DNA of 64,000 bases from Acidimicrobiales bacterium. GTDB taxonomy: Bacteria; Actinomycetota; Acidimicrobiia; Acidimicrobiales; Iamiaceae. The stretch is from the NCBI GenBank assembly GCA_035547835.1, contig DASZTW010000005.1:248001-312000 (forward strand), read 5' to 3'. This document shows positions 46,904 through 52,805 of this stretch, in pieces (the first letter of the stretch is position 1; every line of letters begins with the position of its first letter). A model generated the notes under the pieces. It made no database searches. It was not told where the DNA came from and saw only the letters and a list, made by a program, of their open reading frames with translations. Made by a program: the position numbers and the translations under genes.

Positions 46904-47182
46904 ATGGTCAGCGCCTTCGTGCTCATCGCGGCCGAACCGGCGCGCATCACCGAGCTGGCGAGCGCGCTCACCGAGATCGACGGCGTGGCCGAGGTGTACT
47001 CCGTGGCGGGCGACGTCGACTTGGTGGTGATCGTCCGGGTGCGCCACCACGACGATCTCGCCGCCGTGGTCACCGGCAAGGTGGCCACGCTGCCCGGCAT
47101 CGTGTCGACCCGCACGATGATCGCCTACCAGGCGTTCAGCAGCCACGACCTCGAGAGCATGTGGAGCCTCGGCGTCGACTGA
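46904..47182 (+). CDS. Stand-alone Lrp/AsnC ligand-binding (RAM) domain protein
   Basis: This is a 92-residue protein equal to the C-terminal alpha/beta RAM domain of Lrp/AsnC regulators: VSAFVLIAAEPARITELASALTEIDGVAEVYSVAGDVDLVVIVRVR-like, ending in TRTMIAYQAFS. The helix-turn-helix part is absent. Such proteins bind amino acids and may oligomerise with full-length Lrp proteins. A full Lrp regulator is encoded 5 kb away at 52164. No effector is known here. Confidence 0.88.
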   Translation: MVSAFVLIAAEPARITELASALTEIDGVAEVYSVAGDVDLVVIVRVRHHDDLAAVVTGKVATLPGIVSTRTMIAYQAFSSHDLESMWSLGVD

Positions 47183-47325: not shown

Positions 47326-47805
47326 TCAGTACAAGCCGCTGAGCAGGCCGGCGGCCAACGTCGCTCCCAGCTCCCAGGCCGCGTCGGTGTGCTCGACGGT
47401 CACATCGTCGCCCACCGCCACGACCGGGGCCAGCACTTGCTTCCACTGCAATCCGGCGACGATCCGCTCCACGCTGCGCACGGCGCCCGAACCGTCGTTG
47501 CCCGCCTTGACGAAGAGTCCCCACGGCTTGCTGCGGGTCTCGTCGATGACCTCGTAGTAGATGCGCTCGAGGAAGTCCTTCATCAGCCCGGCCATGTAGC
47601 CGAACCGCTCGGGGCAGCCGAGCACGACCAACTCTGCCCAGCGCACGTCGTCGGGCCCGGCGGCCTCGCACTCCAGCCGGCGCAGTTCGAGTGAGGCGGT
47701 GGCGCCCATCTCCTCGGTGGCCGAGGCGATCCCGTCGAGCACGGCGTCGCGCAGTTGCGCGGTGCCGCCCGATCGTGAATGCGACACCACCAAGAGCCGA
47801 GCCAC
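47326..47805 (-). CDS. Flavodoxin-fold NAD(P)H-dependent reductase-like protein
   Basis: This is a 159-residue flavodoxin/NADPH-dependent FMN reductase-like protein. The FMN phosphate loop is VSHSRSGGTAQLRDAVLDG near 6-24; LGCPERFGYMAGLMKDFLERIYYE and a PWGLFVKAGNDGSGAVRSVERIV core are typical. I start it at the GTG 47803-47805, which gives the usual N-terminal beta strand RLLVVSHS. It is on the same strand as the tyrosine-degradation operon, 81 nt downstream of it. A link to quinone or redox chemistry there is speculative. Confidence 0.8.
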   Translation of the reverse strand: MARLLVVSHSRSGGTAQLRDAVLDGIASATEEMGATASLELRRLECEAAGPDDVRWAELVVLGCPERFGYMAGLMKDFLERIYYEVIDETRSKPWGLFVKAGNDGSGAVRSVERIVAGLQWKQVLAPVVAVGDDVTVEHTDAAWELGATLAAGLLSGLY

Positions 47806-47886
47806 CCGCGGCAGGCTACGACTCGGTTGCCGGGCCGACGCCACAGTCGAGCCCGCGTCGGCGCCGCCACGATGGCCACCGGCGGG

Positions 47887-48795
47887 TCAGGGGCGGGCGA
47901 CAACCTCGTTCGTGAGGGTGCCGATGCCCTCGACGGTGAGCTCCACCCGCTGCCCCGGCGCCAGCCACGGGAACCGATCGCTGCCGTGGACGAGCGACAG
48001 TTCGAGGATGCAGCCCGTGCCCACTGTGCCGGTGCCGAGCACGTCGCCCGGCCGCAGCCGTGTGTCGCGAGCGGCTTGCGCGAGCATCGTGGGCCACGGA
48101 TGGTGCAGTGCGGCGAGGTCGCCGCTCGACCATTGCACGCCGTCCACGCTGGCCGTCATGGACCCCGCGGTGGCCGGGAACTCGTCGGGCGTCACCAGCC
48201 ACGGTCCGAGCGACGTGGCGAAGTCCTTGCCCTTGGCTGGACCCAAGCCGACCGCCATCTCGGTGGCCTGCACGTCGCGGGCGGACCAGTCGTTCATCAC
48301 GCAGAAGCCTCCGACCACCGACCGCCAGTCCGCAGGATGCCGCTCGAGGTCGTCAGCTCCGTCGACCTCGACACCGACCACCGCCGCCACCTCCAGCTCG
48401 TAGTCGAGCCGTTCACAACCGCGCGGCGCGTGCACGGGATCGCCGTGAGCCAACACGGCCACCGGGTTGGTGAAGTAGAAGGCGGGCACCTCGTACCAGG
48501 CCGCCGGCACGGTGCGTCCCCGCGCGCCCATCGCAGTGGCCACGTGCTCCTCGAACGCGTAGAAGTCTCGGATCGACGGCGGCTCGGGCACCGGGCTCAA
48601 GAGGCGGACGGCGTCGAGCCCGAGCGGCGGTCGGATCGGGTCGGGAGCGTGTCGGGTCATCGCCACCCGCAACAGCGACTGCTGGCCTTCGAGCAACGAT
48701 GGCGACGCCGCGATGGGTGACGCGGTGCCCGCAGCGGAATCGACGGTGGCCACCCACTCGAGGCCTTCGCGGTCGGCTATCAGCGCCAGCTTCAC
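47887..48795 (-). CDS. fahA: Fumarylacetoacetate hydrolase family protein
   Basis: This cleaves fumarylacetoacetate to fumarate and acetoacetate, the last step of tyrosine degradation, if the operon context is right. The 302-residue protein has the FAH metal-binding features: FYAFEEHVATAMGARG, LDYELEVAAVVGVEVDGAD, and GPWLVTPDEF with GSGTVGTGCILEL-like C-terminal core. It is shorter than eukaryotic FAH but normal for the bacterial type found beside hmgA. The GTG at 48793-48795 lies 13 nt after the hmgA stop. No maleylacetoacetate isomerase gene is present. Confidence 0.82.
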   Translation of the reverse strand: MKLALIADREGLEWVATVDSAAGTASPIAASPSLLEGQQSLLRVAMTRHAPDPIRPPLGLDAVRLLSPVPEPPSIRDFYAFEEHVATAMGARGRTVPAAWYEVPAFYFTNPVAVLAHGDPVHAPRGCERLDYELEVAAVVGVEVDGADDLERHPADWRSVVGGFCVMNDWSARDVQATEMAVGLGPAKGKDFATSLGPWLVTPDEFPATAGSMTASVDGVQWSSGDLAALHHPWPTMLAQAARDTRLRPGDVLGTGTVGTGCILELSLVHGSDRFPWLAPGQRVELTVEGIGTLTNEVVARP

Positions 48796-48808
48796 CGGAC
48801 CACCCGTC

Positions 48809-49975
48809 TCAGCGATTGGCCGGTTCGCTCGACCACGACGCCACATACCCCTCGACTTCGGCCGCCGCGGCCGCGTCGGAAGGCACGGGGTGCAGCGGCC
48901 GGAACACGTCGATCATCACCGCGTACTCGTCCGTGCGCACGTGGACCTTGCCGTCGCCCGCGCGGGCTGCCTCCGCCGCGGCGCGGTCACGGTCGACCGC
49001 GCCGGGCTGCGGTCCGTGGTGCAGACCCGACGGGTGGAACGTCAACATCCCCGGACCGATGCCGGCTCGCGAGAAGAACTGCCCGGAGTGGTAGAGGATC
49101 ACCTCGTCGCAGTCGACGTTGCGGTGGAAGAACGGCAGCCGCACCGAGTCGGGATCCTCTTCCAGCGGCCGCGGCGCGAACACCCCGACGGCCAGGCCGT
49201 CAGCCACGAAGTCGGTGTGGACCGACGGTGGCAAGTGGTAGCGGGGCGACACGATCGGTCGGTGGTCAGCCACGTTGAGCCGCATCGGAGCGACGTCGCC
49301 TTTCCAACCGACCACGTCGAAGGGATGGAACGGGTAGCGGACCACGGTTTTCTCGCCGTCGCGCTTGATCACCACCGCGAAGTCGCCGGACTCATCGATG
49401 GGCGCCGGTTCGGGGACTTCGAGGATGGCGGGATCAAACGGTGCATGCCGACCGAGCAGTCCGCGATCGGGGAGGTCGAACCGCGAACCGATCGCCTCGA
49501 CGGCGAGCAAGTGCGTCGACTGCGCCGGCTCGAAGCGGAACGTGGTGCCACGCGGGACCACCAGAAAGTCACCCGGTTGGTAGTGCAGCGGTCCGTACTC
49601 CGTGGCCAGCACGCCGACACCGGTGTGGACGAACCAGCAGAGGTCGCCGTCGGCATCGCGGAGGAACTCGGCGGCGTCGCCGGCCGGGTCGCCCGGCTCG
49701 AAGTGCAACACGCCGATGGCCACTTGCCCGTTGGTGAGCAGCCACAGTGGCCACCGCATCGCGCTGTTCGTGATGCGGGTGGTGTCCCAGGCGCGATGGG
49801 CGGCGGGCCCGTCGACCGAGGTCCACCCGGTCGGCGCGTGGAGGCGATACAAGTGCGACGCCGGCCCGCTGAAGCCACCGCGACCATGCTCGTCTTCGAC
49901 CGTGCCCGGTGGGAGCCCGACATGGGCCTGCCGGGTGACGGTTCCCTGTTGCCACTGCGGCAAGTTCGTTGCCAT
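48809..49975 (-). CDS. hmgA: Homogentisate 1,2-dioxygenase
   Basis: This opens the aromatic ring of homogentisate with Fe2+ and O2 to maleylacetoacetate. The 388-residue cupin-fold protein has the iron and substrate motifs FFHRNVDCDEVILYHSGQF and LTFHPSGLHHGPQPGAVD. It is shorter than the roughly 440-residue classic enzyme but matches an actinobacterial type. The ATG at 49973-49975 has GGAGG 5 nt upstream; a GTG two codons earlier is less likely. It follows HPPD by 27 nt. Confidence 0.92.
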   Translation of the reverse strand: MATNLPQWQQGTVTRQAHVGLPPGTVEDEHGRGGFSGPASHLYRLHAPTGWTSVDGPAAHRAWDTTRITNSAMRWPLWLLTNGQVAIGVLHFEPGDPAGDAAEFLRDADGDLCWFVHTGVGVLATEYGPLHYQPGDFLVVPRGTTFRFEPAQSTHLLAVEAIGSRFDLPDRGLLGRHAPFDPAILEVPEPAPIDESGDFAVVIKRDGEKTVVRYPFHPFDVVGWKGDVAPMRLNVADHRPIVSPRYHLPPSVHTDFVADGLAVGVFAPRPLEEDPDSVRLPFFHRNVDCDEVILYHSGQFFSRAGIGPGMLTFHPSGLHHGPQPGAVDRDRAAAEAARAGDGKVHVRTDEYAVMIDVFRPLHPVPSDAAAAAEVEGYVASWSSEPANR

Positions 49976-50002
49976 GTCCACCTCCGGCCCGGGCCTGCGC
50001 GG

Positions 50003-51130
50003 CTACAGGTTGCCGCGCTGCGCCTGCGCCCGCTCGATCGCCTCGAACAACGCCTTGAAGTTGCCTTCGCCGAACCCGGTGGCGCCCTCGCGCTGGATCA
50101 GCTCGAAGAACACCGTGGGGCGGTCGCCGAGCGGTTCGGTGAAGATCTGCAGGAGGTGACCCGCGTGGTCCCGGTCGACCAACACCCTTGCGCCGGCCAG
50201 CGCATCCCATGGCAGATCGAGGCCAGCCATCCGGGCCCGCGCGTCGTCGTAGTAGTTGTCCGGCACGTCCATGAAGCGCACGCCGCGGGCCCGCAGGGCG
50301 TGCACCGACGCCACGATGTCCGGCGTGGTCATCGCGACGTGCTGGACCCCCGGGCAGCCGTAGTAGTCGAGGTACTCCTCGATCTGGCTCTTCTTGCGCC
50401 CGTCGGCCGGTTCGTTGATCGGGAACACGACGCTGTCGCCGTCCCACACCACCGTCGAACGAAGCGCCGAGAACTCGGTGGCGATCTGGTCGGCCTCGAA
50501 GTGCTGGAGTCGACGGAACCCGAACACGTCCTCGTAGAACTGCACCCACCGGTCGAGGGTGCCGCGCTCGACGTTGGCGACCGTGTGGTCGATGCGACCG
50601 AGTCCGACGTCCGGCCCGACCGGCGTGACCAGATCGGCGCGCTCGAAGCCAGGGAGGAACGGGCCCGAGTAGTCGTGGGGATCGACCAGGCGATGGACGG
50701 TCTCGCCGAACGTCGCCACCGACCCCTCCGCGACGGTGCCGTGGCGATCGCCGACGTGGGTCGGCTCGGCGACCGGCGTGGCACCCCTCGCGACCAGCGC
50801 GTCCCACGCGCCGGCCACGTCGTCGGTCGCGAACGCCACGACTTTCACGCCATCGCCGTGGCGTCGAACGTGATCGGCCACCGGCGAATCGGGGCCGAGC
50901 GCACTGGTGACCGCGAAGCGGATCGAGCCCTGCTCGACCACATAGGTGGCGGTGTCCGGCCGACCGGTCTCGGGCCCGGCGTACGCCGTCGGCGCGAAGC
51001 CGTACGCCGAGCACAAGAAGCCGGCGAACGCCCGGGCGTTGCCGACCCACCATTCGAGGTGGTCGAGCGCCTTCAACCGGGGGGCCGACGGTGCACCGCC
51101 AGCCGCGCGGGCATGTCGGATGGCGGTCAT
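50003..51130 (-). CDS. hppD: 4-Hydroxyphenylpyruvate dioxygenase
   Basis: HPPD converts 4-hydroxyphenylpyruvate to homogentisate with O2 and Fe2+. The 375-residue protein has two vicinal-oxygen-chelate halves. The iron ligands are His182 (RIDHTVANV), His264 (GVQHVAMTT) and Glu343 (TVFFELIQR). The C-terminal GFGEGNFKALFEAIERAQ helix gates the active site. The ATG at 51128-51130 overlaps the upstream gene stop by 4 nt. All catalytic residues are present. Confidence 0.95.
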   Translation of the reverse strand: MTAIRHARAAGGAPSAPRLKALDHLEWWVGNARAFAGFLCSAYGFAPTAYAGPETGRPDTATYVVEQGSIRFAVTSALGPDSPVADHVRRHGDGVKVVAFATDDVAGAWDALVARGATPVAEPTHVGDRHGTVAEGSVATFGETVHRLVDPHDYSGPFLPGFERADLVTPVGPDVGLGRIDHTVANVERGTLDRWVQFYEDVFGFRRLQHFEADQIATEFSALRSTVVWDGDSVVFPINEPADGRKKSQIEEYLDYYGCPGVQHVAMTTPDIVASVHALRARGVRFMDVPDNYYDDARARMAGLDLPWDALAGARVLVDRDHAGHLLQIFTEPLGDRPTVFFELIQREGATGFGEGNFKALFEAIERAQAQRGNL

Positions 51131-51999
51131 CGGACGGGCTCCGCGACGCGCCCGTCGCGCGGATGCAGCGGGCCCGCCCGACGGTCGGTCTCGAGTCCGT
51201 CCCAGAAGACCTGCACCCCGTCGAGCATGTGCGCCGCGCCGCGGAGGAAGGCCACGCCGTCGAACCCCTCGGTGCCGTACAGCTCGGCCAGCTCGGCCTC
51301 GGTGTGGCCCGCGTGTTGGTCCTCGACTTTGTCGTGCCACGTCCAGAAGGCGAGCGGGAGGTCGACACCAGCTCGTGCCGCGAAGCGCTGGAGCCCGTCG
51401 ATCAGCTCCTTCCAGAACCCGGCGGCCGCCCAGTGCTCGACCGCATAGCTGGCGCCCTCGGCCTCCCACACGTCGTCGGACCCGTACCAGCGGAGCAGCT
51501 CGTCGCAGAACAACCGGGTCGCGGGGGTGGCCAGGCGCCGCTTGCCGAGGTCGGCGAATCCGAGACCCAGCGGGGCACCGAAGCGGAGCAGCCATTCGAA
51601 GTGGGCGGCACCGAAGCGAAAGCGTCCACCGTCGACGCTGCCTTCTGTCGACAGCAGCGCCGGGTCGACGTCGTCACTGGGGAGCCTCGACGGAGCGCGG
51701 GCCGGACGGAACACGACCCCCAACTCGTTGAGGAGGATCTCCTTGCCGGCGTGGTACGCCTCGAGGGTGGGGGCGTTCAGGACCTTGCGGAGCGCCGCCT
51801 CCATGAACAAGTGGCTGAAGACCGAGAACTGCACGGTGAGGTGGCGGACTTGGTCGACCGTGGCGTCGCCTGCCGCGAACCAACGCGTGTAGACGTTGTC
51901 GACAACGACCGGGTGCGTGTCCACCAACTGGTCGACCTCCGCCCGGAAGGACCCGAGGCCCGAGTCGACCGGCCCCGTCAGCACTGGAACGCTGGTCAT
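51127..51999 (-). CDS. Heme-oxygenase-like diiron protein (HDO-like) of unknown function
   Basis: This is a 290-residue all-helical protein. Its pattern fits the heme-oxygenase-like iron-containing redox family: FSHLFMEAALRKVL near 61-74, LLNELGVVF near 89-97, FDELLRWYG-like near 164-172, and the His/Glu cluster WHDKVEDQHAGH at 221-232. No TenA or PqqC catalytic signature is obvious. It leads the tyrosine operon and is translationally coupled to HPPD (ATGA overlap). A strong AGGGGGAG ribosome-binding site precedes the ATG at 51999. The chemistry it performs is unknown; a companion oxygenase or a cofactor or quinone modification is possible. Confidence 0.72.
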   Translation of the reverse strand: MTSVPVLTGPVDSGLGSFRAEVDQLVDTHPVVVDNVYTRWFAAGDATVDQVRHLTVQFSVFSHLFMEAALRKVLNAPTLEAYHAGKEILLNELGVVFRPARAPSRLPSDDVDPALLSTEGSVDGGRFRFGAAHFEWLLRFGAPLGLGFADLGKRRLATPATRLFCDELLRWYGSDDVWEAEGASYAVEHWAAAGFWKELIDGLQRFAARAGVDLPLAFWTWHDKVEDQHAGHTEAELAELYGTEGFDGVAFLRGAAHMLDGVQVFWDGLETDRRAGPLHPRDGRVAEPVR

Positions 52000-52057
52000 T
52001 TAGACTCCCCCTTTCGGCGATCCAACCGCGACACTGCCGAGGACCGCGAATTCCGAC

Positions 52058-52157
52058 GATCTGTGCAGTCCAGTGAAGGTGCACTCGTAGATCCCGTCAA
52101 CACTTCTACGATCTGCTGCACAATCTGTCACCTCTCTCGCCAGATTTGCTGTACGGT
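52058..52157. promoter_or_regulatory. Divergent regulatory region with repeated GATnTGTGCAG-like sites
   Basis: Three related sequences lie between the tyrosine operon and the divergent lrp gene. They are GATCTGTGCAG at 52058-52068, an inverted partner GATCTGCTGCACAATC at 52110-52125, and CAGATTTGCTGTAC at 52141-52154. TACGGT at 52152-52157 is a -10 box 7 nt before the lrp ATG and overlaps the third site, so autoregulation is plausible. Confidence 0.5.
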
Positions 52158-52163
52158 TCGCTC

Positions 52164-52805
52164 ATGTTGCCTACGGGGATCGACGAGCTCGACGCCCGGC
52201 TGATCACTGCGCTCGCGGCGTCTCCCCGCAGCGGCGTGATGGAGCTGGCCCGCCAGCTCCAGGTGGCCAGGGGGACCGTGCAGGCCCGCCTCGACAAGCT
52301 GCAGTCCCGGGGGGTGATCGCGGGTTTCGGTCCGGACCTCGACCTCGAGGCGCTGGGGTACGGGGTGCTCGCCTTCGTCACGCTCGAGATCGCGCAAGGC
52401 GGGCTGGCCGAGGTCGTGGCGCACCTCGAGACGATCCCCGAGGTGATCGAGGCGCACTCGACCACAGGACCCGGCGACCTCCACTGCCGCGTCGTCGCAC
52501 AGTCGAACGAGCATTTGCAGGAAGTCCTGTCCAGCGTGTTGTCCGTGTCGGGCATCCGTCGCACGTCCACGCAGATCGCCCTCACCAGCCAGATCCGCAC
52601 ACGGGTCCTGCCGATCGTCGAGATGGTGGTCGACGAAGCGCCGGTACAGCCCGCCACCAACAACGCGCCCGCCAGACCCGCCGCAGCGACCGACGGCAAC
52701 GAGGCGGGCCGACGCCGCCGCAGCAGCCCGGAGACACCGACCTCGGGGAACGTCCCCGCGCGGCGGGCAGGCCTGACTCGCGGTCCCCGCGGCCGCAAGA
52801 GCTGA
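52164..52805 (+). CDS. Lrp/AsnC-family transcriptional regulator
   Basis: This is a 213-residue regulator. The N-terminal helix-turn-helix is LDARLITALAASPRSGVMELARQLQVARGTVQARLDKLQSRGVI-like (about 10-53); the RAM domain follows (LAFVTLEI...HLETIPEVIEAHSTTGPGDLHCRV). A basic, Pro-rich tail of about 60 residues extends the C-terminus. It is divergent from the tyrosine operon across 164 nt and is the best candidate for its regulator, probably sensing an aromatic amino acid or its keto acid. The ATG at 52164 suits a leaderless transcript. Confidence 0.9.
   Translation: MLPTGIDELDARLITALAASPRSGVMELARQLQVARGTVQARLDKLQSRGVIAGFGPDLDLEALGYGVLAFVTLEIAQGGLAEVVAHLETIPEVIEAHSTTGPGDLHCRVVAQSNEHLQEVLSSVLSVSGIRRTSTQIALTSQIRTRVLPIVEMVVDEAPVQPATNNAPARPAAATDGNEAGRRRRSSPETPTSGNVPARRAGLTRGPRGRKS

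Follow-up and report, generated by a model that had tools for sequence, protein, structure and literature searches.

The first gene of a tyrosine-degradation operon in the window, the whole stretch of 64,000 nucleotides analysed here, probably encodes a pterin-independent diiron phenylalanine 4-hydroxylase that stands in for PhhA. Textbooks attribute the hydroxylation of phenylalanine to a single family of pterin-dependent enzymes, and the classical phenylalanine hydroxylase is of the type that people with phenylketonuria lack. The gene of the window protein, a predicted member of the heme-oxygenase-like HDO superfamily, swaps with PhhA between genomes, which makes phenylalanine its likelier substrate; in PhhA's place, it would probably make tyrosine from phenylalanine without a pterin cofactor.

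The operon and its regulator comprise the following features:

51127-51999, minus strand: HDO-family gene, an ORF of 290 aa with an ATG start, first gene of the operon
52004-52014, minus strand: ribosome-binding site for HDO, which reads AAAGGGGGAGT, with AAAGGGGGAG just 5' of the ATG
50003-51130, minus strand: HPPD, 4-hydroxyphenylpyruvate dioxygenase (TIGR01263, 402 bits against a cut-off of 277)
48809-49981, minus strand: HmgA-like homogentisate 1,2-dioxygenase of divergent sequence (HgmA_N, E 1e-15; TIGR01015, 86 bits, below the cut-off of 510)
47887-48846, minus strand: FAH-like fumarylacetoacetate hydrolase (FAA_hydrolase, E 3e-48)
52146-52805, plus strand: AsnC/Lrp-type regulator, divergent from the HDO operon; it flanks HDO- and PhhA-type operons alike

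The genes follow the order HDO-HPPD-HmgA-FAH, all on the minus strand and with HDO at the head. An earlier note had placed the ORF at exactly these coordinates and length, leaving out its strand, and had read it as the leader of a tyrosine-degradation operon; the gene order agrees with this. The translational coupling to HPPD that it proposed is seen in the 4 nt shared by the HDO stop and the HPPD start (ATGA, 51127-51130). The ORF is real, since relatives with 50-70% identity occur across many phyla. The HmgA-like and FAH-like proteins are identifiable, yet they score far under the equivalog cut-offs. Orthologues of the AsnC regulator share 52-77% identity, and in the window it carries a low-complexity C-terminal extension, about 60 residues past the usual 150. 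Near the operon end, a 92-aa protein has the AsnC ligand-binding (RAM) domain by itself and lacks a DNA-binding domain (46904-47182, plus strand). An FMN_red-family protein that may belong to the operon is encoded 3' of FAH (47326-47844, minus strand); it was set aside as an electron donor, with 0 homologues in the other HDO loci.

Searches of Pfam, NCBIfam and PDB sequences with the window protein give 0 significant matches, and the best sub-threshold ones, CADD and BesC, are both HDOs. Its AF2 model (pLDDT 83, pTM 0.80) is a seven-helix heme-oxygenase-like bundle, in line with the fold suggested earlier, and resembles BesC, FlcD, HrmI, CADD, PolF, UndA and AetD with Z of 15-20. The nearest structures are BesC, FlcD, HrmI and CADD (Z 18.6-20); individual VIA Z values are 19.9 for BesC (rmsd 3.1, 216 residues), 19.8 for HrmI, 18.6 for CADD and 18.1 for PolF, and the top Foldseek match is CADD (E 4e-5). 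PF14518 ('Iron-containing redox enzyme') is weakly matched by 42/55 relatives, with a best E of 6e-5, and leaves the window protein itself unmatched. The window protein stays far below the equivalog cut-offs of CADD/PabS (TIGR04305, 16.2 bits against 200) and BesC (NF042919, 15.4 bits against 500), and PF00351 (Biopterin_H) does not match it in the Pfam scan. Judged from the model, it belongs to the HDO superfamily, as a distinct family that no database family names: the fold match, the conserved ligands and the weak PF14518 and TIGR04305 matches among its relatives together argue for a separate family.

The putative diiron ligands form a 3H/3C set made of E92, H133, E188, H222, E226 and H229. 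The same set provides the ligands of most HDOs according to a 2026 review (PMC13108848). Four of the six residues were assigned through a profile-search alignment to BesC, E92 and H133 through motif and conservation. Their codons, and an insert between them, are located as follows:

51724-51726, minus strand: codon of E92, proposed ligand (NELG), invariant in 56/56 sequences
51610-51717, minus strand: insert of about 35 residues between E92 and H133, partly conserved (G120, V122, G124), pLDDT mostly <50
51601-51603, minus strand: codon of H133, proposed ligand (AAHFEW), kept in 55/56
51436-51438, minus strand: codon of E188, proposed ligand (VE[HN]WAAAGFW), invariant in 56/56 and aligned with a BesC Glu
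51313-51336, minus strand: codons of H222, E226 and H229 (HxxxExxH, third metal-binding helix), invariant in 56/56 and aligned with the HxxxExxH of BesC (7twa)

The clustered His/Glu residues pointed out in the earlier note, WHDKVEDQHAGH, are residues 221-232. They are not a chance feature, because H222, E226, H229, H232 and E236 are invariant in 56/56 aligned sequences. Once run, the suggested check of metal-ligand conservation finds the ligand residues kept across homologues; the one exception at H133 is a Melainabacteria HDO with Leu at this position (L053, 8001-8723). A diiron oxidase or oxygenase, as had been proposed, is upheld as far as the predicted superfamily and the ligands are concerned, and the window protein is predicted to bind two Fe. 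The alignment of 55 sequences has 42 invariant columns.

Among characterised HDOs, BesC (4-chloro-allylglycine synthase) is one of the closest in fold; it shares the HxxxExxH and Glu ligands and also acts on an amino acid. In contrast, it is only 15-19% identical to the window protein, lacks the insert, with an E92-H133 spacing that is much shorter in known HDOs, and cleaves 4-Cl-Lys in the biosynthesis of amino-acid natural products, whereas the window gene sits in a primary catabolic operon. CADD/PabS, the self-sacrificing pABA synthase, is the best sub-threshold family (TIGR04305, weakly matched by 26/55 alignment members), yet CADD gives up its own tyrosine for folate synthesis and the window gene has neighbours of the HPPD pathway. 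AetD and PolF have the same fold (Z 15-18), and the AetD substrate is an aromatic amino acid; both enzymes belong to secondary metabolism, where their products are a nitrile and an azetidine, with no ring hydroxylation reported (PMC13108848). PhhA shares with the HDO gene the genomic slot before HPPD, the operon partners, the regulator and the proposed reaction, but it is an unrelated mononuclear-iron, pterin-dependent protein of the PF00351 family.

A scan of public genomes found 246 stretches that encode relatives. The best 80 of the 246 were kept as loci; their proteins are 50-70% identical to the window protein and come from about 15 phyla, as assigned from record titles, mostly of metagenome bins. 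These phyla include Actinomycetota, Cyanobacteria/Melainabacteria, Gammaproteobacteria, Acidobacteria, Chloroflexi/Dormibacterota, Krumholzibacteriota, Gemmatimonadota, Eremiobacterota, Bdellovibrionota, Neomarinimicrobiota, SAR324, Planctomycetota and others. Within these best 80 loci, HPPD is found in the fetched stretch of 41 (38 on the same strand), directly downstream (<=300 nt of the matched region) in 24, and HmgA without HPPD lies near HDO in 4. Neither gene adjoins HDO in 35 of the same 80, which counts against the phenylalanine hydroxylase reading.

Gene content was compared in 198 genomes of the window's order, 185 Gammaproteobacteria and 50 HDO genomes reached via the loci, three of which recur in the gammaproteobacterial sample. 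The window's order has HDO in 11/198 genomes, HPPD in 41/198 and PhhA (PF00351) in 30/198. The pairing of HDO and HPPD across genomes, another check suggested beforehand, holds throughout: all 11 genomes of the order with HDO carry HPPD, compared with 41/198 for the order as a whole (p 9e-9, shared ancestry ignored), as do 5/5 HDO genomes of Gammaproteobacteria, compared with 31/185 of those sampled, and 50/50 from other phyla.

HDO and PhhA exclude each other. Among genomes with HPPD, PhhA occurs in 25/30 without HDO and 0/11 with HDO in the window's order, and in 21/26 and 0/5, respectively, in Gammaproteobacteria. Combined, this amounts to 46/56 against 0/16 (Fisher p 1.3e-9); such p-values ignore shared ancestry and overstate the evidence, because the independent contrasts number 2 supported and 5 at best, too few for a sign test. 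A PhhA search in the 50 locus-derived genomes, all HDO-bearing and without a matched HDO-free background, found it in 0/50. The two genes also share a slot: each of the 11 genomes of the order with HDO has it immediately 5' of HPPD, and 14 PhhA genomes have a co-oriented PhhA gene <=200 nt upstream of HPPD. The window's nearest relatives, three genomes of its own family (G002, G061 and G185), have AsnC, HPPD-HmgA-FAH and PhhA without HDO, with identities to the window of 66-72% for AsnC, 65-66% for HmgA and 58-60% for FAH. Two families (f29 and f47) contain HDO genomes as well as PhhA genomes, and none with both genes. The partner gene switches about 5 times along the HPPD tree; the exclusion is therefore not inherited from one event. 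A phenylalanine hydroxylase is not obligatory beside HPPD, since 5/30 HDO-free HPPD genomes of the order and 5/26 of Gammaproteobacteria have neither enzyme. The HDO gene occupies the genomic role of a phenylalanine 4-hydroxylase, together with HPPD and to the exclusion of PhhA.

The operons of other phyla point the same way. Besides HDO, they hold a class I aminotransferase, HPPD, HmgA, MaiA (a GST-family isomerase), FAH and acetoacetyl-CoA synthetase. Each step from tyrosine to acetoacetyl-CoA having its own gene, phenylalanine to tyrosine is the unfilled one. The earlier statement that the HPPD-HmgA-FAH route needs no such enzyme is correct if the route starts at tyrosine, and otherwise is not.

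A nearby para-hydroxylation would fit the exclusion and the slot equally well, as it would also replace PhhA: the enzyme could convert phenylpyruvate to 4-hydroxyphenylpyruvate, or phenylalanine and O2 directly to 4-hydroxyphenylpyruvate and NH3. We consider this unlikely. Several HDO operons include an aminotransferase, a sign that transamination of tyrosine or phenylalanine still takes place, and most amino-acid HDOs retain the amino acid. The second, bolder reaction balances on O2 alone, without an external reductant, which suits operons that conserve no reductase; it is perhaps a slim prospect.

An action after tyrosine, in which the enzyme would oxidise tyrosine, 4-hydroxyphenylpyruvate or homogentisate, perhaps by deaminating tyrosine or in a shunt, would account for the tight HDO-HPPD coupling and was the earlier proposal of a tyrosine-derived substrate. 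It appears improbable: other HDO operons supply a separate gene for each later step, the absence of PhhA wherever HDO occurs would be left unexplained, and the swap with PhhA places the role one step upstream. On this point the earlier proposal is not supported.

A protective or accessory protein that limits peroxide or oxygen damage or maintains the iron of HPPD and HmgA, both O2-using iron enzymes, has a precedent in DtpC, an HDO-like protein tied to oxidative stress that limits peroxide in dried Acinetobacter (PMC13232832), but it is very improbable, as PhhA genomes of the order run HPPD and HmgA without HDO, the exclusion with a hydroxylase would go unexplained and so many invariant residues suggest a specific substrate. 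The quality-control role for HPPD raised in the earlier note gives way likewise to a step before tyrosine, which the comparative evidence favours.

For the candidate phenylalanine 4-hydroxylase, we infer the metal content, the substrate, the reaction with its product and the electron donor, whereas the modelled fold, the ligand conservation, the linkage to HPPD and the exclusion of PhhA are computed results. The predicted reaction is L-phenylalanine + O2 to L-tyrosine, which would open the phenylalanine/tyrosine-homogentisate pathway. The six 3H/3C residues would bind two Fe(II), and the amino or carboxylate group of phenylalanine would bind Fe1, like the substrates of AetD, PolF and HrmI. O2 would then give a peroxo-diiron(III) species, an intermediate shown for other HDOs (PMC13108848), that may hydroxylate ring C4 directly or after O-O cleavage. 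Two electrons would come from a cellular reductant encoded outside the operon. The resulting tyrosine would be transaminated and passed on to the coupled HPPD, HmgA and FAH. Known HDO substrates are mostly amino acids and fatty acids (PMC13108848), which we count in favour of this reaction; against it we count that the same review reports no aromatic-ring hydroxylation by an HDO, and that no dedicated reductase is conserved in HDO operons, though hydroxylation needs two electrons. With regard to an anabolic role, i.e. tyrosine made from phenylalanine without TyrA, the 50 HDO genomes have TyrA in 24/50 and PheA in 29/50: 8 have PheA without TyrA, 3 TyrA without PheA and 18 lack both. Almost all genomes of the window's order have TyrA (191/198).

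We found no open-access work that connects heme-oxygenase-like proteins to homogentisate, to phenylalanine hydroxylase or to the hydroxylation of aromatic compounds, subscription papers and preprints being outside the scope. It seems fairly likely that the family constitutes a widespread pterin-independent diiron phenylalanine hydroxylase, a second and unrelated solution to the conversion of phenylalanine to tyrosine, and the first HDO of primary metabolism that hydroxylates an aromatic C-H. If so, it fills an annotation gap in genomes of many phyla that have HPPD without PhhA, extends HDO chemistry to aromatic rings, and gives biotechnology and research on phenylketonuria a hydroxylase that needs no pterin regeneration. 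A conserved family unnamed by databases also gains a precise and cheap functional test, the conversion of phenylalanine to tyrosine.

Some loci have a layout of their own. On a Gloeothece verrucosa plasmid (L012, 7893-10788), the genes after HDO encode a 2OG-Fe dioxygenase and a PLP protein resembling cysteine desulfurase in the place of HPPD, which we count against the proposed reaction; these genes perhaps form a secondary pathway that consumes the HDO product. Three cyanobacterial genomes (G227, G243 and G247; loci L080, L097 and L103) have 2 HPPD copies each, of which one may serve the HDO catabolic operon and the other quinone or tocopherol synthesis. In Krumholzibacteriia-type loci (L043, L044, L046, L059, L064, L065, L069, L070, L077, L083 and L101), HDO is not beside HPPD and adjoins a conserved 289-aa protein of the opposite strand that has no Pfam match. 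Citrate synthase is encoded upstream in L047, L075 and L085.
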